Shown: positions 20,044 through 63,060 of the stretch, piece by piece
How positions within the stretch are numbered: position 1 is the stretch's first letter
How the letters are laid out: every line of letters starts with the position of its first letter
Origin: Fragilaria crotonensis
Lineage: Eukaryota > Bacillariophyta > Fragilariophyceae > Fragilariales > Fragilariaceae
Length of the DNA stretch: 64,000 nt
NCBI GenBank assembly: GCA_022925895.1
Contig: JAKSYS010000015.1
Coordinates: forward strand, 124,001-188,000
Direction of reading: 5' to 3'
The notes under the pieces: generated by a model
Told to the model about the DNA's origin: nothing
The model's database searches: none
Seen by the model: only the letters and a program-made list of their open reading frames with translations
Program-made: the position numbers and the translations under genes

Positions 20044-21300
20044 GGCCGTCTCTTACGGTGAACAAAAATCGTGACATAAACAAGAACAAAAACGTCTTCT
20101 TGTTTCTGTTCTTGAAAAAACACGTCCCTTACGGCGACAAGAATACTAACATAACATAAACACATTCTTGGGGCTGACAAAAATAAAATTAATTCTTGTT
20201 CGGCGAACAAGAATGTTTTGATCAATTCGATTGCTCCGATGGCATCCTCGTCGTCATCCATTAATTAATTTTATAACAACAACATACGTCGCAGCAACTG
20301 GACCTGAGTGACTCCTCCTCATCCTCTGATAAATTCTCTTGTTTCCATTACCCTCCATCGTACCGACAACCGTCATCAGGACGAACGACAAGATGATCAC
20401 AGACACATAGGGAGGGGAGGACAACAGCCAGCCCACATGCCGGTCTTGCCATCGAATAGGGCAACAAGTGTCACGGCCAAGCAGAAGCCCAAGATAGCAA
20501 TGGACATGATGACGCGGAACAAGAAGAAGAGATTCTGAGCAGCACTACGTGGTGGCTCGTTCGACTCGATGGGCTTGCCGGTGATCTTGGAAAGATCATC
20601 TGAACAAGGTACACGCAGTGGAAGGCCAGAGAACTCAATTCCCAACGACACGTAGGAAGTGAAGAGCATGAAGTAGTTGTTGAAGAGCATGAAGGTGAAG
20701 TCAAGCATGCAGTTGGCGGCGTTGACCTGGGCCGTCAATTGACCAACCTGGATGGTGGTCAAAATCATGGCGACACCGGTGGCGAGGAAGTCTTCGTCAG
20801 CCCATTTTGGCAAACCGAGAACCGAGGCTCCCTTGATGGCAGATCCCATCAAGTTGATGACAGTGATAACCAGAACGACGAGGTATTAACGTCCGACGAT
20901 GAAACGCTCCATGTTGTCGCCCTTGTGCGCGAGCTTGGTATTCAACAAGGCACGTGGATAGGATTCGGCATACTGTTCTTTATCGATAGGTTGCTGTAGT
21001 AGCGAAACAAGGCGACTCCCCAAAGGAGGCAGCACTACGTTTACGTACTCTAGTGTAGTACATTGTACTCCAGAGTCTGGAGTACACCGAGTATGTTAAT
21101 ACTCGAGAGGCCGTAACGGAGGACGAGCTTGATCTCGAGTTCGTTTTGGAATTCCAAAAAAGGATAAGGGTTATAAGATATTCGTTCTTGTATTCGTAAA
21201 AATCGTAAGGGACGTAAACAGGATTTGCAACATAAACGCAACTGAATGCTCATGAAATTAATTTTTGTTCTTGTTCTTGTAAACACCGTAAGGATCGGCC
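20044..21300. mobile_element. Non-autonomous PIF/Harbinger-like element carrying a host gene fragment
   Basis: 1257-bp element flanked by TTA at 20041-20043 and 21301-21303, the 3-bp target duplication typical of PIF/Harbinger. Terminal inverted repeats are GGCCGTCTCTTACGGTG (20044-20060) and the complement of GGCCGATCCTTACGGTG (21284-21300), 14 of 17 identical. Subterminal repeats CGTCCCTTACG and ACAAGAACAAAAA occur at both ends in inverted orientation. No transposase is present. The cargo is a silicon transporter fragment on the minus strand. The TIR shares GGCCG-N3-CTTAC with the autonomous Harbinger at 38589-42881, which may supply a compatible transposase (inference). Confidence 0.8.
20254..21010 (-). 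pseudogene. SIT: Silicon transporter (SIT) gene fragment inside transposon
   Basis: Minus-strand remains of a silicic-acid/sodium symporter. In order: QQPIDKEQYAESYPRALLNT, LAHKGDNMERFIVGR, a TAA where family members have the Gln of the GRQ motif, LVVLVITVINLMGSA, VLGLPKWADEDFLATGVAM, GQLTAQVNAANCMLDF, YFMLFTSYVSLGIEFSGL, ITGKPIESNEPPRSAAQNLFF, SIAILGFCLAVTLVALFDGKTGMW, and, after a one-base shift near 20400, VSVIILSFVLMTVVGTMEG. This covers roughly the middle ~220 residues of a ~550-residue family with ten membrane helices. Both ends are missing. The premature stop and the frameshift show it is dead. It lies wholly between the TIRs of the flanking transposon, so it was captured rather than decayed in place. 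Confidence 0.88.
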
Positions 21301-34610: not shown

Positions 34611-37099
34611 GGCACCATAACAAAGCAGTCATACAGCATGACAGCATCATTATCTTGCCTGTGACCCCTCCGGTTACAACTTCCCATCTAACTGTCGGCA
34701 CTTCAATTGCTACTCAGAATGATGAGAACACCCCCGTCCACGCTGACGCCATCAATGGCCCCCTTCCGCACGACGGAATTGGTCCGATGTCCGAACGCGA
34801 TCCCGGAATTGAAAATGCCGTTAACCCCAACTTCAACGACGACATTTCCGATAACGGCCTTGACATAGGTAACATGTCATGCGGAATCCGATGGAAACAA
34901 ATGATGACAGAGATATTCATCAAAACTCCCCCGGACGAGAAATCGAAATTCCCTACGTCGAATTCCCCTCCCACGCCGCCCTACACAGACAAGACTCCCG
35001 CGGACACCACCTACGAATCTGCGGACATGCTGACGACTACGATTCCAGCACAGCCACAGACAATGTCCGCCTTCCACCATCCGGACACCAAGATCTACCC
35101 TGCCACAGACATCCTGCACAACAAGAAAACTACCCGATTCTCAGTCACACTTCCACAATTTTTGAACAGAAAGCCTGCAGCTTTTGAAAGCTGCAATCCC
35201 TTCAGTTTTCTGTCAATTGCTGAGAACTCTCACAATTTGCATCCCACCACCGACAGCGCCTCCGATTGCCTACTATCTACAACTGCAGGCATCACCAACT
35301 TGATCAAGGCAATGTCACACAATCGCTCAGAATACCCATACACAAACAAGACACCAGCAGAGACACTCCTTCATGTCATTCCTGGTGAGTCTAGTTCTGT
35401 GTGTTCAAACAATGAAAACAAAGAAAAATCTATTACTTGCATCTCACTTACTCCTCCTGGCCACAGACACAATGATGTGAATGTAGCAACAGAGGATACT
35501 TGCAATGTGATAAGATATGAATTGGAAAAACAACACAGCCTTTGCAAACACAATGCCCTTGCTGTTCAAACTCCCAGATCATTACTTTCACCCAAAAACA
35601 ATCCGAAAACGCAGACATCAACAACAAACGCTCCGTCAACCGAAAATGCACCTCCAGAAGGAGCAAATGCTCACCAAGAAGTGCACCACCCAATGTTTGC
35701 AAACACGCCACCTAATCGTGAAACATTTCTTGATGACAATGAGCAAGAAAATAATGATGATGATCTGCCTCAAATTCCCTTTACCTCCCCAGATGCCCTG
35801 ACATCATCAACCAGAACCAACTTCACATATCCACCGATTGAAGACCTCACAAGGACGCTCCTGAAATATGCCAAGATTGCAAACCTTCAGGAACTTAGCT
35901 TCCCAACTGACCTTCTCTCACGAAGAAGACAATTCAATGCCTTCATGGATAACCTCCGAATCATATGCAGCATATCACCATGGACACGCCAAGTCTTTGA
36001 CCTTTGGCCGAGACAAATCAATTACTCTCATCCATGTGTTGGTATTGCAATCTTCAATCTGATTTTCACCAACATCTGTGAGCCCTGCCAGACACACATT
36101 ATTGACTGTTCCCCAGATGCCAGAACAGCCATTCTGACTCTAAGACGTCACTGTGCACCGCTCACCCAAGATCACATTGAACGCACGCGCGAATCCTTCT
36201 ACTCCATCAAGCAAGGACATCAAGAAGTTGCAACATCCTACTTGAATCGCATTCGGACATTATCGCGCGACTGTTATCACGCCGGAATCACAAACACCGA
36301 TGCTGATATAATCAAACGAGCCATTCATGGCGGCAGCAATCACCACTTCTATGCTGCTTCCTACCAACGCTTTGATGCCGACATCCGTCGAGCAGAATTA
36401 CATGACAAAGAACTACCAACATTTGCGGAACTTGAGAGCCACTTATTGAATATTGATGATTCCTGTGGACTTACTCTCCCTTCCCAAAACCAACACAATT
36501 ACAACCAACATGCAAATTCTGCACACCAACCTTCATCAAGTCTGCCCTTTCAACATCAAGGCACAACTTATGATGATTTGCCACCACACCAAGAAGTTGA
36601 AAATCTAACAAGCACTCTGGCCTCTGCACAGCATCCAAGAAGACAAAACAATGACAATGATTGCAGTATTGCAATGCAACATCCTCAACCTTTTCAAAAG
36701 CAACATCGCAACGCAAGACCTCATTTCAGACAAAATTCTTCAAACAATGCAAATCAAAGGCGTCCTCCAGATAACTTCAGCTCACCCAATGCTGCAAATA
36801 TTACATGCTACAATTGTGGACAACTTGGCCACTATGCTAATCGATGCATAACCGTCAACAGCTCACAAAACAGCAACCACGGAGGACTCCAAAACACAAA
36901 TCCAAACAATGATGAAACTGCACCCCACAACCAACGTGCTTATTACATCACTGATTCAATTCCATCTCAATCACATGCTTTTTACCATCAAGCATACATT
37001 GCATCCTGCAATGACCAGGGCAACTTCAACTGCCCAAAACCAGTTACTTCATGGCCTGATATTGACACACCTGAGCAGATGGCAATCAACAGAGTATAA
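34481..37099 (+). other. Gag-like coding region of LTR element
   Basis: Long open region. Its centre is a retrotransposon capsid-like helical domain (RRRQFNAFMDNLRIICS...HIERTRESFYSIKQGHQEVATSYLNRIRTL...FAELESHLLNID). Near the end is a CCHC zinc knuckle, CYNCGQLGHYANRC, which binds nucleic acid. The Asn/Gln/His-rich linkers are typical of diatom gag proteins. No ATG at its left limit. Confidence 0.75.
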
Positions 37100-37330
37100 C
37101 TCAATGATTTCTAACCATCAGTTCCAATATCTCCATACAGGCCAACAACAAGACACACTACACATCAACTACACTGAAAACCTTGTGAATCACACTTCAC
37201 AGACATTCCAAACAAAAAAAAATGCAAGTCTCACCAAAAACAAAAACAATCTTCAGATCAAAAGATTCTGTATGTTTCCAAAGCAAATGCTACAACATCA
37301 GAAATCAACAGAGATTTGATTCAAGAGGGG

Positions 37331-38225
37331 TGACAGACTTCCAGTATCGCCCTACATATTTTTACATCTATCCCGATCCCTAACTGTCGCCCGTGTGCAC
37401 AGTAAAACGTTACATCCGTGCTCCAGTAACCAGTGCGACACTGCACGACTGGAATCAAAACTCTCGTCGATTCAAATCATGTTCATCTCATCCCATGAGC
37501 ATGAACACTCATTTTCAAACGAGACTCAACGCCTCGTGTACCGACGACCACACCGCGGCACGAAACGACGTCTCCGAGAAACGAGGAGTGTTCCTCATTG
37601 TTCCAAAGGAACACTCCCCATCTATCAGACCTCTCATCCCTTGCACCTCTCCTTCTTCTCACAATTGTCGAAATAATTCATTTTTAGTGCCACTCACCTT
37701 TTCTGCACATACTGCACATATTTGCACAACATGAATGAAATTGACCATGACGAATTTTTACCGCCGGTCGTCAAATTGTCAACCTCACCATACTGTACAT
37801 ATATCAGTAGTCAGTACGACGGTACTCACTATTACGACAGCACACAGCACGGCAAGCAGTACAACAGTACTTCTTGCACATCACTTCCTCTGCCCGGCCA
37901 TAGTCCGTGCACGTCTGAGTCTATCGTTACCGTACATAACGATAAACTATTAGACAGTGCCCACTATGACCAAAGCGATATTATTACTGTCAGTCCCTCG
38001 CACATTTATGTAGCGATAGACCGACAGATAGTATACGTATCGTTGTCTGTAGCGGTAGACAGCATTGTATTGCTGTACCGTTTATAGACACACTAAGCAG
38101 TAGTCAGTGTTGTACTAGACACTTACCTACTGGGGGCGTGCCCCGTAACGGTCACGTCCTGGTTCTTAACCTGAACCCTATGCCGACCTGCGCGTCGACA
38201 GGTTCCGTTAACCCGAACCATATCA
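37331..38225 (+). repeat. 3' long terminal repeat
   Basis: 895-bp partner of the 5' LTR, preceded by a polypurine tract and followed by the GGATG duplication. Confidence 0.93.
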
Positions 38226-38882
38226 GGATGTACTGTAGTAACCTCATTTTTTCTTGATTCCAAGGTCTGGATTCAATTTCTTATGCATACGACAGTAGAC
38301 AGTAGGCAAAAGCACACTATTGGTAGTTTGTAGATTGTACTACAAAGTACTGGTACTGGTACTGATACTGAGTCCGGAGTACGGAGTACGGAGTATTGGA
38401 CTACCGTATTTCTCGGTATTTTGTACCCCCCAAATGTACACCGATGGGTGCAAAAATCCCACCACAAGTTCATCAAAAATGTCCGACGGTTAAAGGGAAT
38501 CCGTGAAAAATGGACATCGGGGTGACAACTCAAATAATGGAAAATGAAGATTTAAACTCGTCTTCTGATGATTAGAGTTATACATTCAGGCCGGTGCTTA
38601 CAGAAAACACAGAATTTTCCCGAACCAAACTCGACGTCAGATTCCTTCCGCGCAACAAAATCAGTTGCTTACAGAACTCCGATGTGAACCAATTTCAATT
38701 TCCCTATGTACTTTCTTTAATTTTATATTTCTTCTATAGCGATGAGTATTAGTGTTGCCGACGAGCCGTTGAACCACGTTGCGTAGGAACAATACCAATT
38801 TGTTCATGTGTTTCGATGGAACATACTTTGACGAAAGATCTGCAGAACACAAAATCCATCAACCATCTAAGTTCGGCGCGCC

Positions 38883-40616
38883 ATGTCGAGAGCAAGCAAA
38901 CGAATCGGCACTAACGTCACGAAGGCGCTATTGGTTGAGATACAGACTACAATCGCGTTGGCATGCTACGATTCCCCTGAAATTGTCCAGGGAGGAGACT
39001 CAATGACTGAAATGGAGCAAGCCAAGATTATAATTGATAACTTTGGCGGCAACGATGACCCAGAATCCATCTGCTACCTTGATCAGTTCGTCAATGGGTT
39101 GGGCAGGTTTGCGGGTTTATTTACCTCATCTGAACCTGACGAATCAGGTCAGATTTTTCTAACGATGCCACAGAAGTTGCATCGACAAAAAGGGCTTCAT
39201 ATATTTGTCGGACCAACTTCCATCACCAAGGACCTCTTGTTGCAGAGGAATTTCACAAACACCACAAAGATTACGGGTCGGACATTACACAAAAGGGCAC
39301 TACAGGCGGTGCAAACGTGTAAGAAGATGATGGCGCTTGTGACAGCACCGGGGTCTCCATACCGAGACGGAGATTTTCCATCGGGTACAAACTGGGATGA
39401 CTACATCCTATGGTGCCTTGATGCGATCCAGATGGAATTTGAACGAGAAGAAAAGGCACGACAACCTAGGGGAATGCAAGAAACTGCGATGGTGAGTGGA
39501 CCAACTGTGATGACGATGAACGAACCGGCGAGGACAATAACGACAACGACAGACGACACTCCATCAGTTGCAGCAACTTTGCCGGAAATTACTGCTGCGG
39601 CATCGGCGGCGAGACAACAAGTCGACAAGAGGGGGACAGAGAAAAATCCATATTTCAAATTCGGCGTCGGCTTCTTGGCATGGGCTCTTTGGGGGCACAT
39701 ACCGATTCAGGATGGGGCAGCGATGGCCTCTATGCTTTTCAATGAGTCCAAAGTTGATACGTCATTTGGACGTGGCACTCATACTCGGACCGCAATGCGA
39801 AAGGCGGCGATGGCAGCAAGTATGCCTCCTGTCGACAATCGACGTGGCAAAAAACGTGAGATAGACGTGATGCAACCACCTGAGAATGCTGTCGAATTGG
39901 ATCTCTGGAAAAATACTCTGAAGCACCTTGAGGCCGAGGCCTTGGAGAAACAAGAGAAGCAGCATCATAGTATGCGTCTTCGTATTATTCGGGACAAACT
40001 TGCCGCGCGTCGTGGGAAAAGGGAAGTGATACTCCAGCAGCTCACACTCTCGTCCAAGTTCAGGAAGAAGCCTGATGACGTATTGCTGGAAAAGATGCAA
40101 AGCAATGAAGACGAAATTGAGAAGCTTGAACTTGAACTTGAGAAGCAACAACAATCTGAGTGCGATCGACAAAGTCGGGTGTTGGAGGAAAAACGTAGCA
40201 CGGTCAAGTTGAGTATTGAAATGGCGACTCCAATGATTGGAACAAGTGGTAGTTTCGGGAGCAGTGGAATCGAAAGCAGTACAAGTGAAGACAATGAGAA
40301 TGGTAGTGGTCGTGGCGGAAATGATAGGATCACGAGGCTGCTGACGAATGATACTAAGAATGATGACGCTGACGGAAACAAAAGCACTCCTCGAGCAAAC
40401 ACCCCAATGAGTATCACGACTAGTAGTACTTGCACGGAATGCAATTTGATGCCGTCTAACCATACTTGCTTGAAGTGCAAGCGAGTTCGAGTGTGTTCCG
40501 TTTGTTGCGATACAAATCGAGGATTGCAAAACAATCCGTGGTGCAAGACTTGCTTCGACAATGAAACGCCAGCGAGTCAAACGAGGATTCGCAATGGCGA
40601 CTACAACTATAGGTGA
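38883..40616 (+). CDS. Harbinger accessory protein with C-terminal zinc-binding domain
   Basis: 577 aa from ATG 38883. PIF/Harbinger elements usually encode a second, SANT/Myb-like protein that carries the transposase to the nucleus and to DNA. No clear Myb helix pattern is seen here. The first 190 residues look globular (ESICYLDQFVNGLGRFAGLF, HRQKGLHIFVGPTS), followed by a hydrophilic region with coiled coil (~350-440) and Ser/Gly-rich linker. The end has paired cysteines: CTECNLMPSNHTCLKCKRVRVCSVCC..NPWCKTC, a likely cross-braced zinc domain. Function as transposase partner is inferred from position only. Confidence 0.7.
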   Translation: MSRASKRIGTNVTKALLVEIQTTIALACYDSPEIVQGGDSMTEMEQAKIIIDNFGGNDDPESICYLDQFVNGLGRFAGLFTSSEPDESGQIFLTMPQKLHRQKGLHIFVGPTSITKDLLLQRNFTNTTKITGRTLHKRALQAVQTCKKMMALVTAPGSPYRDGDFPSGTNWDDYILWCLDAIQMEFEREEKARQPRGMQETAMVSGPTVMTMNEPARTITTTTDDTPSVAATLPEITAAASAARQQVDKRGTEKNPYFKFGVGFLAWALWGHIPIQDGAAMASMLFNESKVDTSFGRGTHTRTAMRKAAMAASMPPVDNRRGKKREIDVMQPPENAVELDLWKNTLKHLEAEALEKQEKQHHSMRLRIIRDKLAARRGKREVILQQLTLSSKFRKKPDDVLLEKMQSNEDEIEKLELELEKQQQSECDRQSRVLEEKRSTVKLSIEMATPMIGTSGSFGSSGIESSTSEDNENGSGRGGNDRITRLLTNDTKNDDADGNKSTPRANTPMSITTSSTCTECNLMPSNHTCLKCKRVRVCSVCCDTNRGLQNNPWCKTCFDNETPASQTRIRNGDYNYR

Positions 40617-49900: not shown

Positions 49901-51860
49901 ACTATGGTGTCCTGTTTCAAATCAGAGGAGACAATTGGCGAAATGTCCAATGTAGCGCCGTGCAAAATGTTAGACCATTGCATACAGGGACTTGACCATG
50001 AGTTGATGTCGGTGACAAGTTGTTAGTTGTGCACAAACTTCATGTGTGTGAATTGTTCATGTGGCTGTTCAATGAAGGAAAGTGCTTCCAAAAATGCATG
50101 TGGTTAACAGTGTCCCAAATGCAATCCTTCCATTGGAATTGGTGCTCTTGCGTAGAATAAACACGGAGGAGTTTAGATCCATCGATGTGGAAATGGAGAT
50201 AGTCATAAATGTTCACCAATGCTAGGTAAATTCTACCGGCTGTCATCGGGACTATTAGGAGGATGTGAAGAAGTGAGATGTGTTAGACTGGCTTGGTACT
50301 TGCCCAGTTATGACGGAGGTGATGCATGTGCATCAACATCAACATTGTATTGATGGAAAGTTTGGAGAGCAATACGGTCTGGACTTGGTGATGCTTGACC
50401 CAACAAGTCATTTCCATATATTGGCTAGTACTTGTAGCTCAAAGGGAACTGCAATTTAATCCACATACTAGTTGAATTGGCAGCACCACAATTTGGTTCC
50501 TCAGTGAGTGACCAGCTGTCCTGTAGTAATAGCACCCTGACTGTCATCAATTCATTATGCCACAATGCCGACAAGAAGGATGCAACAGCCATTTTCAGCA
50601 ATAAAAAATTTGGAACAAATTCAGGTTAACCACTTATGGGACACTGTTGCAAGATCTCACTAGGAGGTTCGTGGCCTTGGTGCATTCACAATGTTCTTGG
50701 AGTGAGTGAAAGATGTGGGATATGAGCTGATTTGTTCAGCCACCAGATCACTTTCCCATAGGTTTGAATTCACATTCTCACAACTGATGAGTTGCAGGAA
50801 TTCAGCCAATAAACTTAGCACCAATCCAATCCATTTTAAACAACGAGGGAGCAGTTAATCCATCACCAAGTTGGTGCAAGTATGATCGCCTAGGCATAAA
50901 GGTACATCCTGTCGTGTGATCAATCCATGCTCAAAGCTTCCACAGGATTGCGACTTGAACTCCAGTCAGTAACAATTTTAGGAGTTAACTTTTGAGTGAA
51001 ATGCTTGACAACAGACTTATACTAGATCATTGGCAAGCACTTTGCTCACAGTGAAACACAAGAAGGTAGTATTCGATAAAGCGGGGATTGCCTTGAGGAA
51101 ATCATGTGCCTATACGAGATTGGCCCTCTTCAGTTGTGATTGGTAGATGCCTGTATTGCCATTGTGGAAGTCAGAGAAGACTCGAATGGGGGTACCACTC
51201 AGTTGCAGGTGATCCCGGAGGATGTAAAGTGCTGTCAACATGATTTTTGAGGTCTACAGACATGATGCTTGTTGGAACGGTTTCATTAGGACCCAAAAGG
51301 CTCCCTTGTTGACAACCAGTGCGCAGACCAAGGTGTTCAGAGTCAAGGTGATGCAAGGCAAGTGAGAAACAATGAACTGCATTGTATTAGTTTCATGAGC
51401 GAATATATCACTCCCTCTGAACTTGATAGGTTGACCCCTCAAGCTTGTGAGGCGTTGTCTAGTATTGTGTGTGACAGGGATGGTGTTTTATCAGTTGAGG
51501 CTGTTTTTTACACGTAGATCATTTGGACTGATGAGTGAGTAAGAGAGTGAGTGAGTGAGCGAGTGAGGACAAAGAGCCGGGTTACCAGATGTCCAATTGC
51601 CCTACGCGCGAAGTAATCAGTTTTATTTTTGTAGACTTATTTGTAGCTAGTTTAAAGGGGGGTAATAGTTGTAGACTTATTAAAGTTATGAGACTAGTCA
51701 ACAACAAAGAGAGATCAGTCCCATCCCTGGTGGGACTGAACTGATCATCTTAGATTACCTAGAGGAGACTCAGTGAGTCTCCAGGAGTTGTCAACATCAG
51801 GGGGGCCAAATCTCTGGAGTCTGAATAATTATTTTTGACATTTTATAAATAAATATTTTA
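46971..51860. other. Gene-poor, probably decayed repeat region
   Basis: Nearly 5 kb in which every frame is short and codon pattern is irregular. No host gene is supported. Base composition (A-rich, few GTAC words) differs from the host intergenic spacers, which suggests old mobile DNA; the family could not be named. Near the right end lie two hairpin-forming sequences (51712-51782) and a purine tract, possible element termini. Confidence 0.4.
51712..51782. repeat. Two adjacent inverted repeats
   Basis: First: GATCAGTCCCA..TGGGACTGAACTGATC (51712-51745). Second: GGAGACTCA-G-TGAGTCTCC (51764-51782), a perfect 9-bp stem. Both could form RNA hairpins at the end of an element or transcript. Confidence 0.75.
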
Positions 51861-51998
51861 ATATCTATCACCTTTATCGTTGGCTATTACTTAGAAAAGT
51901 TCTAGATATTTATGTACAAAAAGTGAAATTACTGCAGAAGTATCTTTAAAGTTTTATACATAATTCTGTACAAAGGCTTTCTCCCCCACCATTTGGCT

Positions 51999-52070
51999 TG
52001 ACATTCCAAACTTTCCCGCAAATATTTCTAGTGTGACATTCCAAACTTTCCCGCAAATATTTCTAGTGTT
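51999..52070. repeat. Tandem duplication, ~36-bp unit, two copies
   Basis: TGACATTCCAAACTTTCCCG... ending TTTCTAGTGT is repeated twice head to tail just downstream of the minus-strand gene that ends at 52136. Confidence 0.85.
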
Positions 52071-52135
52071 AAGCTGGCACAGTACTGTACTACTACTGTG
52101 TGTTGTTGCCAGCACACTAACAAGCACCATTGTTA

Positions 52136-53628
52136 TCAAACTGATACTCCTCGAACTCCATCGTCAGGTTGCTGCTCTCCATTCATCCCTGCACCTCCAG
52201 TGATGTTTGCGTGTGCTAATAACAATTCCATATTGAAATCATTGTAGACAATTGTTGGCTGAACAGTCGCCACAGGAATTACCTCAGCTTCTTCTCCAGA
52301 TTGTCCACTTGCAGCGTCAATTCCAGAAGCATACCTGAACTTCATTTCCTCCAAGAAGTCAGCGTCAAATGCTGCTCCATGTTCTTGACGGTTGCGAAAC
52401 ACGTCAATCATTAATGCGTTGAAACGCTCTAACCCTTCCTTCGACCAACTTCTTTCGTTCCGTAAGTTTTTCCAGTGTATCTTGCCTCATATAATTGTGG
52501 AGAACTATCGCGAGGTGGCAATGTGGCTGGAGGTCCCATTCTCTGTACCATCCAATCATGCCTCCACTTTGTCATGTACGATTCGATGCACACCATCAGG
52601 AAGGCCTCGTCCGTCAGTGTGAACCACTGACTCAGAGGCTGCCTTGTGCGATTCTCCATGTACTTGCTGTACCTGACAACAGCCTTGACAAGGCAGTCAA
52701 GGAAGTCAATGTATCTTTCTTTAGATGCTGGACTCCTCATTCCAGCAATCTGATTAAGTTCAAACGTGACAGCATATCCATCTCGCCCCAGTATTTTATC
52801 TGTGAAATAACAGTTGTCAGTACAGAAAGTCAATCAGAGTTACCACCATCCTGAGCAATATGCACGTTCCTCACCTCTAAAAAGTTGTTTGATGGTTTTG
52901 ATGACATTATTTCTATGCCTTTTCAATGCATCATTAACATGTTTCTTGACTCCATCCCACCAAGTCTTCACTTCATCCTCGCCTTCTATCTGGAGCTTGC
53001 TCGCCATGAACCTACAAATTGAGTGTGGACTGTTGCTGAAGTCAAGTTCAGCCAGAGTTGCAAACTTTTGCTTCGGAAATAAGAGCTCTTTGACCACCTT
53101 GTCGTGCATGAACTCTTGGCTTACTTTTCTAAGCTTAGTTCTTGTCAGTCCATCATGATCACCCATTTCCAATCTTCTCCTTACCGTTTTCGTCAATGCA
53201 GTGCGGCTGCTATCCTCCCGTCGTGACGCTTCTTGCACCAATTCACATGTGTGAATTCCTAAATCGCGTGCAATATCGTCTTGCCTTCCTATTGTTGTTG
53301 CTGCTGGTGGTGTTTGTTGTTGAACTTGCTGTCGCTGTTGTTGTTCTTGAAATCGTTCTTGAAGTCGTTGTAGATATCGTTGCTCTTGTTGTCGTCGCTC
53401 TTGTTGTCGTTCCTGTTGTGATCTACCAGACATTCCTCCAACTCCACTTCCTGGATTCGTGAAACCAGCATGTCGACCAGCTGTTGTAGCTTGACTGCGG
53501 GTCATGATCATGGGTGACAATGCTGCAGTTTGACTTCGGGTCATGATCATGGGTGACAATGTTGCTGCATCTTGTTGACTGCGGGTTCTGCTGGGCGACA
53601 ACGTTGCAGCTTGACTCCGTCGTATCAT
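52136..53628 (-). CDS. Gln-rich protein of unknown function, probably transposon-encoded, frame broken
   Basis: Exon 1 53628-52875; intron 52874-52800 (75 bp, GTGAGG..CAG); exon 2 from 52799. The N-terminus has short repeats (LSPMIMTRSQ) and a Gln/Arg-rich coiled stretch (QQERQQERRQQEQRYLQRLQERFQEQQQR). Then come a folded segment with a MGDHDGLTRTKLRKVSQEFMHDKV motif and, in exon 2, FTLTDEAFLMVCIESYMTKW. Near 52465, in an A5 run, the frame shifts by one base; the likely continuation SWSKEGLERFNALMIDVFRNRQEHG is in another frame to 52136. Not recognised. Its setting beside the dioxygenase-transposase cassette suggests a mobile-element gene. Confidence 0.5.
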
Positions 53629-54879
53629 TTGCGAATTGCCAGAAGGCGATGGTGATCCTTTTCCTTGCCAGTTTGAAGATTGCCCCCTAACTGTAACTGG
53701 CGCTGCGTTTGGAGGCCCAGCACCTTTCCATGTCCATGATCACGACTGCCACCACCTTGATTGCTGGTGCCTCTTTTTCCCGCGCTCGACGACATCTTGG
53801 TTGACTGCAGGTACACACCAATCAGAGCAAGCTATATGGCAGGCTCGTCAGGTGTGGTGTAGCCAACTGTCATCAACAAGATCTCTTGTTGTTGAGAACT
53901 ATTGTAAAATATGATTGTGCTGCATCTTGCGGGATGGTGCTTTGTGTGCTGGTCTTGTAAAAAATCAACGCCCTCGAAATCTGTGTTTTATGTATGTATT
54001 TCTTTATGAACTAAATTATTCAAAAGAAATATTTTCAAGTCTTTCGAGCGAAGGGCACATGCATTGCTCAATAAGTACATCCATTTAAATATCTACTTAT
54101 CCATATGTAATGACGCTGTAATAACCGTACCAAAGTAATGAAGTGCATATGACGGTAGAACTACACTGCAATGCTGTGGTAGAAATACCGTACTGTAGTA
54201 CTGTAGTAAGTAGCAGTAGCTATAGTAATACTGTATGGTATCTTTGGGGTACTGTGTACTGCTGTGCACATCTGTATATTGTTTGTTGCCGGTCACACAT
54301 GTTTATATGACAAGCTTGTACTGTACTGCCTCGGACATATTACTTGTGATAGTTATATACGAATATAACATATATGGATTTAATCAGCACACTATGAAGT
54401 GTATTCAAGATTCATACATGTGCATCCCTGCCATAGTTTTGCTTACCGCGGAAATGGGACTTGAAGTCCTCACATTTCTAAACTAAAAAAATAAATAGAA
54501 ATCATTTCGTGTAAATAGCAATTTCTTTACTTGTGTGACACATGTCTTCTGGGGAGTTAAACTCTCCGCATTCGCAATCGAAAATTCGTATGCGATTAAT
54601 ATATCCTATGTATCGATCTTGTAACCAAAGTTTCTTATCAATTCCTAGGAAGCTTCTAGTTTTTTTTGTATACTGTGTTCGAAGTCCCACTTCATGCTGT
54701 TGGAGTCTCTACGTTTCGTCCAGTACACTAGCTACGCATTAAATTGGAAATCTCTATCGATTTTCTAGTACATTTGCTACGTATCGAAAGCAATTTATTC
54801 ATGTTACCACCAACATTGTTCACACCACACCAATTGTTCACACCAACATTACTGTTGTGGAAGTCTTTTCATTGTCAAC
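53629..54879. other. Spacer without supported gene
   Basis: Between the Gln-rich gene and the tandem array. TACTGTAGTA words at 54170-54260 and AT-rich tracts near 54480 and 54600. Short frames only. Confidence 0.5.
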
Positions 54880-55730
54880 AGCGTCAGATTGCGAGCGTTG
54901 TGTTGCCGAAGCTGCCATATAGCAGACGACGCACCTTCGACGTGAGCCCGCGTTGCTTGCCAAACGACTGTGACGACGGCGTTGAGTGCATTAAGGTGTG
55001 TTGCCGAAGCTGCCATATAGCAGACGACGCACCTTCGACGTGAGCCTGCGTTGCTTGAGTTCGGAATTCGGAATCACTGCCAAACGACTGTGACGAACGA
55101 CGACGGCGTTGAGTTGCACTTACCTGCCAAACGACTGTGACGAGGGCGTTGAGTGCGTTGAGTTCGGAATATCTTCCGACAGCGTGCGTCAGATTGCGAG
55201 CGTTGTGTTGCCAAAGCTGCCATATAGCAGACGACGCACCTTCGACGTGAGCCTGCGTGGTTGCTTGGCTGAGTGCGGAATCCCTGCCAAACGACTGTGA
55301 CGACGGCGTTGAGTGCATTAAGTTCGGAATATCTTCCGACGAACGACTGGGACAACAACAACTGCGACGACAGCGACTGATTGCGAGCGTCTCGTTGGGA
55401 GTCGCTCTTGTTGCCGAAACTGCCATATAGCAGACGACGCAACTTGACGTCATCTTGCGAGCGCTATCAACGTTGTTGGGAGGACTGGGAGCGTCCTGTC
55501 GCCGAAGCTGCCATATAGCAGACGACACGGCTTGACGTCATCTGGCCTGCCCTGCAATCGCTGTTGACTTTGTTGGAAGCGTCTTGTTGCCGAAACTGCC
55601 ATATAGCAGACGACGCGACTTGACGTCATCTAGCGAGCCGCAATCAACGTTGTTTGGGAGGACTGATATTGTCCTGTCGCTGAAGCTGCCATTCAACAGA
55701 CGACGCAGCTTGACGTCGCCTTCGCTCAAC
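54880..55730. repeat. Degenerate tandem repeat array upstream of the TET/JBP-like gene
   Basis: Seven copies of a GCCGAAGCTGCCATATAGCAGACGACGC-type word, starting near 54904, 54991, 55210, 55413, 55500, 55588 and 55678. The last four are spaced 87-90 bp and each ends in CTTGACGTCATC or a variant. Earlier copies are interleaved with a second unit (GCCAAACGACTGTGACG.. GGCGTTGAGTGC). The array stops a few bases before ATG 55735. Confidence 0.85.
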
Positions 55731-55734
55731 TTCC

Positions 55735-58138
55735 ATGATTCGCAATGATGACAACGACCATTTGGCTACACGTGGTCGGACGTCGATCTGTCGTTCGAGC
55801 GTTCTGAATCTTGGGGACAACCCGCGTGTAAACCCTGGAAAAGCTGCAGGTGGTGCACAACGAATGCCACGTTCGCGTGGCCGTAGGAACTACTACCCTG
55901 GCCATCCAAAGGTTCTGTCGCTTCTGTTGAAGTGTGTTCCCTTGGTTTTCGGGAGTGTTCGTCGTGGCTTCAAGGCTGCGATGGATTCACGTCCAAAGAT
56001 GCCTGATGATCTATGTATTTGTGGGACTCCACTGCGGTGGATTCAGGATTCTTTAAGAGAAAACAGTATCATGTCACACAACTTCGTTCCTTGATGAACT
56101 CTACTGTAGACCTGGTGTACATGACCATGTTTCGGAATTCTTCTTGCTAGATGTTATTCTTCATCGCGCGCGACCACAACTGGGAGAGGGTGTGGCTCCT
56201 CTGGCCGAACGAGATCCTGACGCTGTCGCTAATGCGTGCGTCTACACTGACAGCGATGACGAGGATGGGAAGGATTACGAGTACTGTGCGGTGCTTGCTT
56301 TCCTTCCCGGTGCTGGCACCTTGTATAGCCACCGCGAGCGACGCAAGGCTGAGACGGGTTTGCAGAATTCGTTTGTACAGCTGGACATGAGCTGGCTTCG
56401 ACTCTCTCGGGCAACAAGTGAATCATCAGATACTGGAATGGACCGATTGGCCTTCGGTCTGGGTGGATACGTGAGAAAACTTGCCTCCGATGCCTCTGCA
56501 GATGGTGGATTTGTATCCGCTTGGAAAATATCCCGGAGTTATCATCACGAAAAATTGAGTCGCCAGGTGTATTGGGCAAGTCAGTGCTCCGATGCTGACG
56601 GTCCTCGAATGCCACCTGATGTCATCGGTGGCATTGATATTGGTGCGTGGCATCCAGCTGATCGTGGGCAAGCTTTCAATGACCGCTTGGCGAGGTCAAA
56701 CTCTGTCAGAATTGGGGGGAGACACTATGCTCCTGGCTGCCATCACTTCCGCCTGCCCAGCGATTGTCTTGTGATTGATGGGGCTGATAATGCTGTGGTT
56801 GACATTGTTGTGGATATTGCACCAATTGGCAATTGCACATCTCGGAAGTCGATCATCATGGTTCGCCAGATCTTATCGCCAACTCTGGATCCATTGTGTA
56901 AGGGTGAAGCAGGGCGACCACTCATGGTTGAGGACTTGCGTTTCATCACGTTACACAACTCTTTGTTGAGGACGCGTGTTCCTGTCGGCTCGGCTAGGGC
57001 CAGTCGCGGTGATCTTGGAAACATGCATCCGATTGGGACTCGCATCCTTCTTGACGGAGTGACAACGGCAGAGTACGCTGCAAACTCGAAAGTTCCCCAG
57101 CGAATGTTGCGGAAGTTTGTTGAGTCGTTGGCTAAGATTGGTGCGAACTGCTTTCCGGAAGTTCTTGCCGTGATGCAAGATGCTGAAGGCGACACCGGTC
57201 TCCACCCTGTAACACCAATGGCTGACAAGGGAAGTGAAGATCGTGTGGCGTATTCCATTGACATGTCCGTGGACCTTGGAAACGCCTCCCACTTCGATGT
57301 GGGTGACTCCTCACAGGGCTTCTCAGTTTGGACTGAAGAAGTCCCTGGCAAGGCGGCAAACTGGTTTTTTGTGATGCCAAATCTATTCGGGAACAATAAC
57401 GGTGCGCCATTCAATGGCGTTGCTGTCAAGCTATACCATGGAACAGCCATCAGTTGGGATGGCCGAGTCATACGTCACTGTACGTCACTGACTTGTCCTG
57501 ACGGAACTGGCAAGCCATATGGGGGTGGCGACCATCCCACACTGAACCATGTGTATGGTACATTCTCCGCCGCTAAAGAGCGGATTGTAAATGCAGGACG
57601 ATGCAGGGCAGCTGCGGCTGCGGCTGCTGGATGTCCTGTCACAGCATCCGGTGACGAAATCATTGCACCGCACGTGGGCGTGGATGTTGTTGGAGCCGCT
57701 GGAGTTAACGGTGATGACAACAGCACTGATGACGATGACCTTGTTCCTTGGTGGGATAAAGTGCTTCCACCTTACGTCCCCAAAATTGAGGATGCGGACC
57801 CTGACGGGCATCCACCGCCCAAAGATGGCTCGGAGGAACACTGGTTGTGTTTTTACGCGCAGAAGAAGGGTTGGGATAAGGTACACCAACCTGATGAAGC
57901 GGTGACTGCTGATGACGACTCATCCCTATTCTCTCGTGATATTGATGATGAATATTCTGACTCCGTGGCGATGGATAACTTTGATGGAGAGGGACATGTC
58001 AGTCTCAATGAAGACCTTCATCCTCGGGTGATGTTGTCGGGAGACCGTTCACAAGGGACACCAACTGAATCTATAACGGCAGCCATGCTGATGCAGGGCA
58101 ACTACACGGTACCAAGAAGGAAGAGGTTGAGGTACTAA
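55735..58138 (+). CDS. TET/JBP-like 2-oxoglutarate/Fe(II) dioxygenase of a DNA transposon
   Basis: Begins at ATG 55735; the frame changes once near 56085 (about one base) and is then open to 58138. The C-terminal half shows a double-stranded beta-helix dioxygenase: iron ligands His-x-Asp in NASHFDVGDSSQGF (57290-57298), the block GVAVKLYHGTAISWDGRVIRHCTS with the distal His at 57476-57478. This block resembles TET2 around GVAVAPTHGS..LHATTP, so the closest family is judged to be TET/JBP, enzymes that oxidise 5-methylcytosine or thymine in DNA. N-terminal CICGTPLRWIQDS may be a zinc or DNA-binding part. It ends 30 bp from a convergent Plavaka/KDZ-like transposase gene; TET/JBP genes linked to KDZ transposons are known in fungi. 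Family call by eye only. Confidence 0.6.
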
Positions 58139-58168
58139 TTGATACATACTATAGTTGAAGGATGCGGA

Positions 58169-61100
58169 TCACCACACCGATTTGTAAAACAGAGATGCCC
58201 ACTCCTCCTTATCCTTCACGACAAAAACTGTGTCCGTAAGCTCGCAACCATCGACAAGTACATAACACAAAGAAACAAGTGCAGTGCTGGAAACAACGTA
58301 GAATTTTCGGTCAAAGGTCCACTCAGTGAACAATATGGACTCGCGACCAGTGGGCTGATTGCAAGATTGGACCACGAGGTCGAATGACTTATCCTCCTGG
58401 GGATGTCCACGTCGGTGAATACAACTGACAATACGACATGGGAAGTCATCCAAATTTCCTTGATCGTCTTCAAACCGAATCAATGCCCAATCATACCAGG
58501 GATATCCATCACCTCGAAAATTTGGATGGGCTCGAATGGAAATGCACTTCTCTTCTGAATCAACTTCGTACTTTGTGTATTCAGTGCTACACTCTATCGT
58601 ACCCTCCCCATTCTCATCCAAGTCAGTTTCACTGTACGATTGCACTATGAAAAGTGCAAGATTTGGTTCGAGGTGGATGGGTTCCCTTGTTTCCGTTATG
58701 AAAACAACTTCACGAACCAAACGATTGTTCTGATTGGGATCACGGAAGCATCGGATGTGATAGCGAGTGCCACGACCTACTTCTTTCGTTGCTAGTGGAC
58801 GTGATGTGTTGAGGGAGCGTTTTTCACGGAATTCTTCTGCAAACACGGCGTGCATTGTGTCTATGACTAATGTGTCGGCAATTCTCCGTGCGCACTGCTG
58901 GTCTATCGTCTGAATGCACTTTTGTGAACGACGAGCAGGGCGCTTTGCATGGGCCTTGTGATGTTCCTCGGGTCGTGAGGCATTGTAACCACGAGGTGCT
59001 CCAAACGTAGAAATGAAACGGACGATGTGTTTCAATTCGTGGAATTTTGACACCTTCCAGCCATTACCAGCATCTCGTGGGAGGTACTTCAGAATAAGAG
59101 ACATGAGCCGTGTAATTGCATTTTCTGCCAAGGCTGCCTCCCCAACTTTATCTCCTCCTATAGCGTCCCAATAGGTATCAGCATCCAGCCATGCCTCGAA
59201 GCACAGAAGGCATTCCATTGTACCCAGGACTGCCGGAAGATCGGGGATGTACCTTGAGATGGCATGCCATACCTCAGCCTGCATAGTCAGTGCAGCGAAA
59301 GGAACAAAGTACCTGATTGTTCCGAGCACTCAATAAGTGTTAGGTTGGTGATGCCGCGTGCGAAATCAGTTCGAGGAAAATCTTGACGAATAGTTTGGAG
59401 GCATGTGACATCAAATTTAAGTGCCATGTCATCAAGGATTGCCAAGATCTCGGCGCCAAGAAAAGTCTTGAATGACTCAAGTACATACATGATGACACCA
59501 TGCTGCACAGTATGCATGACATCGATGACAGCACACATGAAGATGCCATGAGGATTACGTCCCATCTGGACACGGTTGAAGGCATTGTCAACCCTGTACA
59601 TTGAGAGCTGCTGAAGAAAATCGTCTTTCCCATTGCGACATGCATCATTGACATAATCCATGCGAAGAAAAGAACACTCAACATTTGGATTGTCAAGATC
59701 GTCAAAAACACAATCACAGGACCGATGGTGACGAGGTGTACTTCTATGGTGACTGTTTGTACGGCAGCAAAGTTGATCGCCTTGCTTACCATCATTAATC
59801 ACAAAAAGCAGTGGACAAACAATATCAACAACCACCCACTGACCGCCAAGTTTCAAAGGAACATTCCTCAAACGACAATCATTTCCAGCTTGTGCCTTTG
59901 ACATGCCATTCAAAATTACGTCCATCACTGCATGAAAATTACGTGTGGTGCGTCCTTTGGACTGTGCGTTATTGGCTTGAGAGTTCATTGCGGATGATCG
60001 TCCGCGATTCAAGTCGGGAACATAGCCTAGTACTCGCCAGGATGTGCTCTTTCTCCTGAGCTTCTCAGTGAAGAGAGATGTCGAAGGACACAGGACACAC
60101 TTCAACATGCCCCTTGCTGTCAATGGCAGTCCCATCAATATAGAGGATGATAGGGACAAGTAGCTGATTCTTTCGAGTGATAAGTTCATGATAGAGCTCA
60201 CGGTAGCGGCTTCCAGTGTGTGCCTCACCAATTTTGTTGTTGCGTGGGAGGTACATTGACGTGGGATCCTCGTGGTTAAGCACAAGATTTTCTGGTGCCA
60301 TCAAGTCTTCATCCTGTAGCAACGACAAAAGGATGGGAGCAAAGTCAAAGCAAGCAATCTCTTGAGGTTTGTCACGATCTTCAAGGGCAATGGAGATCAC
60401 CTGGGGGAGATGGTGGTGTGAATGTTGCAAAGCCTGATACATCCATCGGATGTTCGCTTTCCTGGACATAGCTTTTGGCTTGAAGTCAAAGCCGCTAGAC
60501 TTTGCATTGTAAGCCCACATTAAAACTTTGTGCAGCATGTAGTCAGGACACTGGGCGTCCTCCAGAATCTTCAAAAGTTCAACAATGCATCGATGTTCAA
60601 CATCATGTTGCAAAACCATCACTGCATGCCTCTCATTTGCACGAATGCGTTCCATCAACGCATGGACAACTGCAGGAGATGCAGTATTGTCAATTCCAGG
60701 AAAGAGTGTCGTTGTTATTGGAAGTTGATCTAACTGCTGGGCGTTAAAACACATTTCATTCTTGTCATTTTCATTGTCATCATCATCATCATTGCCGTCG
60801 TCATAGCCAGTTGTTCCATAGTCAAATTCTTCGAATGGCATGTGCGTGGGAGGATTTGTGTCCATTCCTGGATTCAGGCGGGTTGATTCTACACCATAAC
60901 AGGGACGTCGCACTGTCGAAACAATTTCGGGGCAACCATCCACGCTTGCCCGAGTTCCTGACTGCTGCCTTTCCATGTAATCCTTACAGGATGAACTCCG
61001 CCAAAGGTGCATACGCAGTCCGCGTTCAGATTTAAACCTAGCATAGCAATTGATGTTAAAGCAATCAAACATGACAATTGTCAACAATGCCTGATGGTGC

Positions 61101-61195
61101 AACTTTGAGGGAACAAATTTTGCAAGACATAGGCAACATAATCCTGAGTCTGGCGCGTGAAGAAAATTGCGCGGGCATCCTTGGAACTTGAGCAT
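58169..61195 (-). CDS. Plavaka/KDZ-like transposase, frame broken
   Basis: Starts ATG 61195. N-terminal zinc-finger-like CFNINCYARFKSERGLRMHLWRSSSC. Then an acidic linker, a core with YIDGTAIDSKGHVEVCPVSF, LRRKSTSWRVLGYVPDLN, CDCVFDDLDNPNVECSF, NPHGIFMCAVIDVMHTVQHGVIMYVLESF, and a C-terminal block WKVSKFHELKHIVRFISTFGAPRGYNASRPEEHHK. This order resembles fungal Plavaka transposases, where a similar HELKH..FG...YNTE..E.HK block follows the catalytic core. The frame slips near 60075 and near 59305, each explained by one missing base with no intron signals, so the copy is inactive or the sequence has indel errors. It is probably the transposase of the element carrying the dioxygenase. Terminal inverted repeats were not found. 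Confidence 0.6.
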
Positions 61196-62100
61196 GAGTG
61201 AACATTGGCCCGGTGGTGACCCATTACAGAGAATTCAAGATAAATTACCATTGAATAATGCACAAAGAGTTATTATTGTAAAACAATATCTACAACAAAG
61301 CTACAAATATCTGAAAATCATACATTGCCAATAAATAGGAGAAATGTGTTTTGTTGTTCATATATATTTACAATAAAGCAAACATTTCTCAGAAATAAGT
61401 AGAAATTGATGGAATATGTGATTAAAACCCACCGGGTGAAGTACAAACCAGAGATTTGGCCTCCCTGATGAACCAGCCAGTTCTCATTTCTACTGGTTAC
61501 TCACCTAATGTGTACGGTTGTACTGCTGTACAGGATCAGTGCTCTACTGTTGCACTGTACTATGGTATTACTAGTCCACCGGTCTATCCAAGTACTATAC
61601 ATGGCCATTGTATTGTAGTACTGGATACTAGTAATAAAGTATACTGTATCGCTCTACGCTAAGGGCATGTGCGGTGTACTGCACTAATCTGACAACGCCA
61701 CGAACCAGGAGCTTGGAGATGTTCACTAAAGAATCAATACTCCTATGCTTGGACACTATACTGGTTGATGCAAGTGATCATGAAGGTTTGGCTGAGGTTT
61801 GTCAGTGGGTCCACGAGGTATCATTGACAAATGAGGAGTCAATGAGGTAAGAGTGAGGTTTTTCATCACAGGACATAACTCTTGAGTTTTCACTATCAGC
61901 AAGGTGGCCAAGTGTATTCATCAGTTTCACAAAGCAACAACAACAAGGGACAATCACACTGCCGGGCAGACACCACTGCCTAGGCTGGCTGGTTTCAAGA
62001 AATGGCGGTAGTGCAATGGAGAGCAGCTGTTTTTATTGGAAGAAATGCTGAAGTGAATTATCTTGACAATGCATTGATACATGGACTGGCTGAAGTCTAT
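61196..62100. other. Spacer without supported gene
   Basis: AT-rich flank of the transposase (61260-61430), then a GTAC/TACT-rich stretch (61490-61665). No gene supported and no terminal repeat of the cassette identified. Confidence 0.45.
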
Positions 62101-62129
62101 CTGGGAGGGGTTGCTGGATAACATTCAGT

Positions 62130-63060
62130 TGCATCGTCACACATCAATAAGCTGCCAGCATGCCAAAGTTGATAATGATGCAACCATAGAATGCACTGGC
62201 ATCATTTTTGATTCTTGCTAGGTTTTGTTGTTTCAGGATCCGACACAGGTCGGTGACGAGTTTGTGTGAGCATGATTGGGTCCATGGTTGTCCAAGTGGG
62301 AACCAATCCATGCTGCCCTGGATGGAGAGATTCAAAGTTGAATGACCACTGGATCCTGAGAAAAAGATTGTACTCGTGTGACTTAGAACAGGTAGATAAA
62401 TTGGAGCCAATTTATGTTGGGACAAACCTGATCCTTTTCAATCCAAACATACACCACCTTGTTGCTCCAATGGTTGACTGGCTGATCTCTCGTTTGTGAT
62501 AGTGATGTCGAGGTATGTCATCAGACCATCGACTTTGACAGAATCGGTGATGAGTGCCTTTCTATGGATATCGTTCCAGCCCAAAGGAATGCACCAAGGT
62601 GTTGATTTGTGCAGTTTCTTGATTCCCCATTCTAGGATATCCAAACAGGAGATCTGAGTGACATGACCAGAAGGGACTGCTGCGAAAGAGACAACGAACA
62701 CTGCCAGTTGTTCATCCTCGTCGTCCTTATGCCATTCTGGTCAAAATGCCCTGATGAGATGTGTTGAGCGCATTGAGATGAATCAAGAGGTGAGAATAAA
62801 TGGCGGCGCAAGCAAAATTTTTCTCCCAAATGAAAAAGCATGGAGGCTGAATGGGATGGACTGATGATTTACACAAGATGAGTGACATAATCAAGAGGCA
62901 CCCACCGGAGCAGGAATGCATAGCTGGTTGACACAGAATGAGTGGAATAATTAAGAGGCACCCACTGGAGCAGGAATGCATAGCTAGCTGGGAACATGTT
63001 GTTGAATTTGTGATTGGACCCAATATCCTACTTGGAGGGTATGGTCATACTGTTCGTGTA
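62130..63060 (-). mobile_element. Possible decayed retroelement fragment
   Basis: Minus-strand frame 62425-62144 contains ILKQQNLARIKNDASAFYGCIIINFGMLAAY, which resembles a reverse-transcriptase palm segment (Asp-x-x-x-x-Tyr spacing, leading to GMLAA) of diatom retroelements. Downstream short frames look like more of the same element. Old, heavily broken; family (LINE or other) not resolved. Confidence 0.35.
62871..62995. repeat. Tandem duplication, ~62-bp unit, two copies
   Basis: Two head-to-tail copies containing AAGAGGCACCCACYGGAGCA and GGAATGCATAGCT, ~88% alike. Confidence 0.85.

Follow-up and report, generated by a model that had tools for sequence, protein, structure and literature searches.

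A Plavaka-type DNA transposon of the diatom Fragilaria crotonensis with a predicted TET/JBP-type dioxygenase

In a 64,000-nucleotide stretch of the Fragilaria crotonensis genome (the window), a plus-strand gene for a putative TET/JBP-type DNA dioxygenase (55735-58138) faces a minus-strand gene for a Plavaka-type transposase (58169-61234). A first-pass annotation, made from the sequence, proposed that the two belong to a diatom DNA transposon that carries its own base-oxidising enzyme. This raises the questions of whether the two genes move together, whether the enzyme belongs to the TET/JBP family and what it would do for the element. The element is very probably a Plavaka-type (CACTA/CMC-like) cut-and-paste DNA transposon with three genes: besides the transposase it carries an Fe(II) dioxygenase of the TET/JBP type and one more gene, called the third gene below. 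The whole reading, in which the TET-type enzyme of this diatom transposon serves anti-silencing, is likely.

Ends, genes and insertions of the element

The element was delimited at window positions 51795-61470, third gene included, by comparison with copies on contigs C764, C188 and C3 of the assembly (62.1 Mb, 881 contigs; C-numbers denote its contigs and L-numbers denote loci excised around matches). The C188 copy has an interruption on its left side, and the compared part of C3 stops short of the left limit. The left terminal inverted repeat (TIR), CATCAGGGGGGCCAAATCTCTGG, occupies 51795-51817 on the plus strand and has the same boundary in C764. The right TIR, CATCAGGGAGGCCAAATCTCTGG, read on the minus strand, occupies 61448-61470, and homology with C764, C188 and C3 stops at 61470-61475. 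These 23-bp repeats are the sole two matches in the window, and 100 shuffles gave none. Genome-wide, the TIR pattern with up to two mismatches gave 37 matches, and the reversed pattern gave none. The dinucleotide AA stands outside both ends as the target site duplication (51793-51794 and 61471-61472).

Two exact inward-facing TIRs were found at nine genomic places, the window element and eight others, all with PlavakaB-type CATCA..TGATG termini. When duplication lengths of 1 to 9 bp were tested, eight of the nine copies showed a 2-bp duplication outside the TIRs (AA, AA, CA, TG, CG, CA, TA and AT; the AT case is less certain because it sits in an ATC repeat), and none of this length was found at the TIRs of C295. 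The chance of eight duplications in nine copies is about 2e-9, or about 3e-8 for seven in eight without the ATC case. The flanks of the nine copies are all different, thereby indicating nine certain insertions. Transposase and third-gene matches lie between the TIRs in all nine, and a dioxygenase match lies between them in six (C76, C3, C103, C188, C317 and C764). In addition, C137 is 99.3% identical to the window over 53493-62997, right flank included, and over this comparison its locus looks allelic to the window locus. Two shorter copies, C295:127843-131507 (3.7 kb) and C14:95160-101299 (6.1 kb), have both ends and no dioxygenase among the matches listed, and are probably deletion derivatives. 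In the copy at C317:31734-57891 the dioxygenase is in two parts (36016-37392 and 53862-54554), separated by about 16 kb in which a Plavaka match lies at 38618-39004; this is probably one transposon nested in another.

The linkage of the two genes was examined from both sides. From the transposase side, 30 loci on 24 contigs (L031-L060), excised around the 30 best transposase matches, were searched for the dioxygenase by tblastn (E 1e-5); the genome-wide transposase search had scored 107 of 308 candidates, and the counts are lower bounds. The dioxygenase was found in 29 of the 30 loci and on 23 of the 24 contigs, the exception being C261, and the genes were convergent on all 23 contigs that hold the pair. 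Because the assembly seems to contain allelic contigs (C76/C137), contig counts overstate the number of independent insertions. From the dioxygenase side, the genome search gave at least 58 clustered matches; it scored 64 of its 469 candidates, and alleles as well as one split copy enter the count twice. At no fewer than 24 of these 58 places a convergent match of the Plavaka lineage lies within 6 kb, against 1.8 expected by chance; the transposase list for this count comprised the genome transposase matches, matches to the Pfam family PF18759 and 18 hand-picked places, and the C295 transposase match among the 24 is below the PF18759 cut-off. The place C108:544783 (L027), listed without a transposase, has a convergent transposase-like frame, so that 24 of 58 is an undercount. 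Some dioxygenases, including those of C170, C156, C121 and C518, were found only by tblastn of transposase loci and not by the genome-wide search. The pair keeps its orientation in copies whose transposase identity falls to about 56% and whose dioxygenase identity falls to about 34% (the latter at L047). The clustered matches and the recurring pair indicate that the observation is not due to chance, and the gene pair of the first-pass annotation thus recurs at other loci. As a separate observation, the neighbor of the dioxygenase copy at L025:210-1265 (C108) is a frame that matches no Pfam family and has a motif resembling a CCHC zinc knuckle; here the dioxygenase may belong to a transposon of another type.

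The transposase gene of the window is read in three overlapping frames (58169-59329, 59287-60300 and 60065-61234). Introns at the frame changes were rejected for this copy: the C137 frame crosses both joins without a gap, and the joins in the window therefore look like small frame breaks. The C137 transposase is broken too, further on than the window joins. The family assignment comes through relatives. L072 (C5) and L073 (C147) match Plavaka PF18759 at 46.1 and 45.3 bits (cut-off 26.3), the alignment of the C137 transposase with L072 spans 788 columns with 31% identity (E 1e-109), and a piece of the window transposase matches L073 with E 1e-33; the transposases of the window, C137 and C518 themselves gave no PF18759 match in the Pfam search. 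By this sequence relationship the protein is assigned to Plavaka as a homolog of PF18759. The first-pass annotation had called it Plavaka/KDZ-like (KDZ: Kyakuja, Dileera, Zisupton), and only the Plavaka half of that label held. The Pfam search of six transposase frames found Plavaka in two and a KDZ family in none, the target duplication is 2 bp, and a 7- or 8-bp duplication of the KDZ type was not found, the single 8-bp match, in C764, lying within the ATC repeat. Plavaka transposases have no sequence similarity to KDZ transposases according to PMC12730594. The motif KFHELKH, that is H(3)H, stands before RPEE, with the catalytic residues assigned by eye, and C(2)C is visible by eye only in L072 among the alignment rows covering that part. 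Across the genome PF18759 matched 80 places, a few below cut-off; some lie 2.4-2.9 kb from divergent dioxygenases (C109, C157, C295 (below cut-off), C30, C341, C502, C529, C777 and C797).

From left to right, the element consists of the third gene (minus strand), a repeat region, the dioxygenase (plus) and the transposase (minus). The third gene occupies 52136-53795, with approximate outer limits, in the frames 52840-53739, 52429-52833 and 52136-52486; in the C764 copy, a single frame of 330 residues covers its first part. A Pfam search with this gene found no family above cut-off. Partial matches to it, 70-100 residues long at about 40% identity, were found at C405, C471, C17, C526, C230, C650 and C43, in each case on the side and strand expected. 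At L012 and L020 (C22 and C40), an opposite-strand frame downstream of the dioxygenase contains GGWSREGMARYN, which by eye resembles RSWSKEGLERFN from the 52136-52486 frame of the third gene; this gene may accompany the dioxygenase in further elements. Between the third gene and the dioxygenase, at 54880-55717, lie degenerate repeated units of about 88 bp with GCCATATAGCAGACGACG, which are also present in other copies and include an 88-bp tandem array of 3.6 copies (55396-55717). These units possibly form a promoter or protein-binding region.

The dioxygenase and its predicted fold

The main frame of the dioxygenase runs from stop to stop at 56057-58138 without an internal stop and contains the HFD motif and the GVAVKLYHGT..RVIRHCTS block noted in the first-pass annotation. 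Its end lies 30 bases from the start of the transposase gene, a distance that was likewise confirmed. The start codon at 55735 is in an overlapping upstream frame (55714-56094), the frame being broken near 56057-56094, and an unbroken dioxygenase of 801 residues is readable in C137. The HxD iron-binding motif is encoded at 57290-57298 (plus strand; His at 57290 and Asp at 57296), and the distal iron-binding His of RHCTS is encoded at 57476-57478 (plus strand). All three residues of the HxD...H triad are invariant in 16 of 16 aligned copies, the window among them; the copies were chosen for long open frames, and some are near-duplicates.

Two structure models were predicted, with a predicted local distance difference test (pLDDT) score of 54 for the first and 70.7 for the second, which covered the core (56474-57622, plus strand). 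TET-family chains lead all four fold searches with these models. With the second model, all 11 matches at E ≤ 0.001 were CMD1, TET2 and CcTet, and the top 16 rows were TET2, CcTet, CMD1 and NgTet1. CMD1 came first in Foldseek and TET2 stood above CMD1 in VIA-align; NgTet1 was within the VIA-align ranking and not among the best 50 Foldseek rows. The placement in TET/JBP had been offered from the start as a refutable claim, and it withstood the comparison with other oxygenases, since ALKBH3, FTO and PHD2 rank below TET2, CcTet, CMD1 and NgTet1. The predicted double-stranded beta-helix is thus closest to TET/JBP structures, at a sequence identity of 8-12% to CcTet, TET2 and NgTet1.

In addition to the fold, selection on the gene was estimated with our own script from 10 copies. 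The nonsynonymous rate (dN) was below the synonymous rate (dS) in all 45 pairs, with dS mostly saturated. The C87 and C22 dioxygenases showed a dN of 0.19 against a dS of 1.21, and the remaining 44 pairs showed a dN of 0.31-0.59 with dS above 2 or saturated. These results show that the dioxygenase protein is under constraint.

Proposed role and rival explanations

We infer the substrate, the product and the benefit of the enzyme; the union of the genes and the constraint are direct observations. Host DNA methyltransferases (DNMTs) would methylate copies of the element and so mark them for silencing. The element-borne dioxygenase would act on the copies of its own element, oxidising 5-methylcytosine or a similar modified base there, and this oxidation would keep promoters and ends open for transcription and transposition, or recognisable by the transposase. 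The DNA methylase family PF00145 has 13 matches in the genome, counted as matches and not as genes. In Phaeodactylum, transposable elements are major methylation targets, and loss of DNMT5a accompanies overexpression of young ones (PMC9998398). An anti-silencing role of the dioxygenase for the element is slightly favored on balance.

Several results weigh against this interpretation. No Plavaka transposase is among the matches listed within 6 kb at 32 of the 58 dioxygenase places, and at 2 of the 58 the transposase match has another orientation. At six of the 32 (C131, C87, C532, C16, C22 and C40), the two longest frames per strand within the adjoining 1.1-1.5 kb or so of downstream DNA are not transposase-like by eye. 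Three of the nine TIR-bounded copies (C14, C261 and C295) have no dioxygenase among the matches listed, and a repeat check of C261 over 1.5 kb again gave none; a copy may therefore be moved in trans without the dioxygenase. None of the three genes is intact in the window copy itself: the dioxygenase is broken in its N terminus, the transposase twice, and the third gene as well. For the enzyme, Pfam gives no TET family for the window dioxygenase or any of the 16 members, the PDB sequence search with the dioxygenase profile gave no TET match, and a PF12851 profile search of the genome gave no match, its 14 controls being silent too. When the dioxygenase was searched against Pfam, PHROGs and the PDB by sequence, the matches returned were at chance level only, and 51 pattern matches in viral contigs yielded no confirmed case. 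Recognition by a sequence profile is a convenient sign of TET/JBP membership and not a defining one. The first model is of low confidence. Furthermore, where TET2 and NgTET1 have an Arg after the distal His, 15 of 16 copies have Asn and one (L094) has Lys. In the known enzymes, 2-oxoglutarate (2OG) is held by two Arg, R1261 and R1896 in TET2 and R224 and R289 in NgTET1, and in CMD1, where vitamin C takes the role of 2OG, Trp stands at the second-Arg place (PMC7854593). An invariant Arg upstream of HxD (R176 of A3) may be one of the two 2OG-binding Arg, and 2OG use by the diatom enzyme is not assured. The distal Arg position was assigned by eye to the beginning of the strand that follows the distal His, next to residues 342-356 with pLDDT below 50, so that co-substrate and product are not readable from the fold.

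If the two genes were chance neighbors, or the dioxygenase a host gene beside a repeat, the copies without a listed transposase neighbor would be the only ones to fit. The convergent pair on 23 of 24 contigs, its presence at at least 24 of 58 places where 1.8 are expected and the enclosure of both genes by the same inverted repeats in six of nine bounded copies led us to reject this for the Fragilaria element family, and it retains next to no probability. The dioxygenase could also be a passenger, a captured gene of no benefit to the transposon. The three bounded copies without a listed dioxygenase and the many broken copies, the window copy included, agree with that account, but the orientation kept across transposases to about 56% and dioxygenases to about 34% identity, the dN below dS in 45 of 45 pairs (dS mostly saturated) and the HxD...H retained in 16 of 16 copies stand against it. 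The observed constraint is hard to reconcile with a passenger, which we regard as improbable. Membership in another 2OG oxygenase group, such as AlkB-, FTO- or prolyl-hydroxylase-like proteins, is more improbable still, ALKBH3, FTO and PHD2 standing below the TET-family chains in the fold ranking.

The rival nearest to the anti-silencing role keeps the transposon and the fold and changes the chemistry. The enzyme would write a mark rather than demethylate, for example 5-hydroxymethylcytosine (5hmC), hydroxymethyluracil, a CMD1-like glyceryl adduct or oxidised N6-methyladenine (6mA), which would be read by the transposase or the third protein or would protect the element. The TET/JBP fold spans such chemistries, as the vitamin C-dependent CMD1 illustrates (PMC7854593), and CcTet acts on 6mA too (PMC12730594). 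The Asn or Lys at the expected distal Arg and the first place of CMD1 in the Foldseek list point the same way, but the Arg assignment adjoins the poorly modelled stretch and VIA-align puts TET2 above CMD1. We judge mark writing unlikely, though the least so of these rivals. A more specific version is a rather doubtful conjecture: the diatom enzymes would be a branch of TET/JBP whose co-substrate site is altered (Asn/Lys for the distal Arg) and would write a DNA modification undescribed in diatoms; the transposon would use this modification to counter DNMT-based silencing or as a mark for its own recognition. If that branch is real, non-fungal transposons acquired base-modifying TET/JBP enzymes on their own account.

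Neighboring genes and comparison with known systems

Apart from the element, the window contains a silicon transporter fragment on the minus strand (20412-20993; PF03842, 218 bits) with one internal TAA. The genome has 19 matches to PF03842, 18 of them above cut-off, and 1 of the 14 control genomes matched, below cut-off; these transporters identify the host as a diatom. A single open frame of 1456 residues at C97:29749-33762 contains three silicon-transporter domains. Fused tandem silicon transporters are known from araphid diatoms.

The first-pass proposal of a diatom DNA transposon carrying a dioxygenase is supported by the TIRs, the target duplications, the linkage and the predicted fold. 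The idea as such has a precedent: TET-bearing Plavaka elements are known in fungi (PMC12730594). No description of a diatom TET-bearing Plavaka was found in searches of the literature on TET/JBP, Plavaka and 5hmC in diatoms and algae, a weak negative because subscription papers fall mostly outside their scope. No such element appears in the available parts of PMC12477816, PMC12633428, PMC11244446 and PMC9998398, and the word diatom is absent from the available text of PMC12730594. The anti-silencing idea for TET enzymes is described there as not experimentally validated (PMC12730594). Diatoms are a good test ground for this un-silencing idea because knock-outs of DNMT5a are available in Phaeodactylum, and in them young transposable elements are overexpressed (PMC9998398). 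The element would offer DNA-oxidising enzymes from a new source and give grounds for seeking oxidised bases in diatom DNA.

Among the known enzymes, CMD1 of Chlamydomonas shares with the diatom enzyme the TET-like fold, for which it leads the Foldseek list, an algal host and HxD...H; it differs in making 5-glycerylmethylcytosine with vitamin C, and no transposon is mentioned in the available text (PMC7854593). CcTet of Coprinopsis cinerea, TET2 and NgTet1 resemble the diatom enzyme, whose fold is predicted, in fold and iron ligands, but the identity is as low as stated above and their canonical distal Arg is not seen in it. Among the known elements, the Plavaka giant repeats of Amoebidium likewise combine a Plavaka transposase with a protist host that has a methylated genome, but their cargo includes tyrosine recombinases and no TET gene is mentioned in the part of the paper available (PMC11244446). 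The KDZ elements (Iyer 2014, via PMC12730594) also place TET/JBP beside a transposase in many genomic copies, whereas their transposase is unrelated and their duplications are 7 or 8 bp rather than 2.

The closest counterparts are fungal. TET-carrying transposons had been described in three lineages of fungi, and TET/JBP genes occur in eleven transposon lineages there (Kojima 2025, PMC12730594). In PlavakaB the ends are 5'-CATCA..TGATG-3' and the target duplications are 2 or 3 bp long, and every TET+ Plavaka is a PlavakaB (PMC12730594); the ends of the diatom element were delimited before the comparison with this paper, and the duplications were counted after it. The TET+ PlavakaB of Agaricales (Agaricus bisporus, Gymnopus confluens) have the same combination of Plavaka transposase, CATCA..TGATG ends and a TET/JBP gene inside, with target duplications of 2 or 3 bp where the diatom element has 2 bp, and their PE-type enzyme, like the diatom one, was recognised through structure-based comparison (PMC12730594). 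The diatom element differs from them in its host, its third gene and its many copies in one three-gene order, and its enzyme has HxD where the fungal PE type has HxE (PMC12730594). Elements of this kind were already known from fungi, and the present one is their diatom variant. The union of PlavakaB-type ends with a TET-type fold in a diatom points to repeated capture or to an old, wide association, and suggests that the use of TET as a weapon does not depend on fungal defences such as repeat-induced point mutation (RIP).

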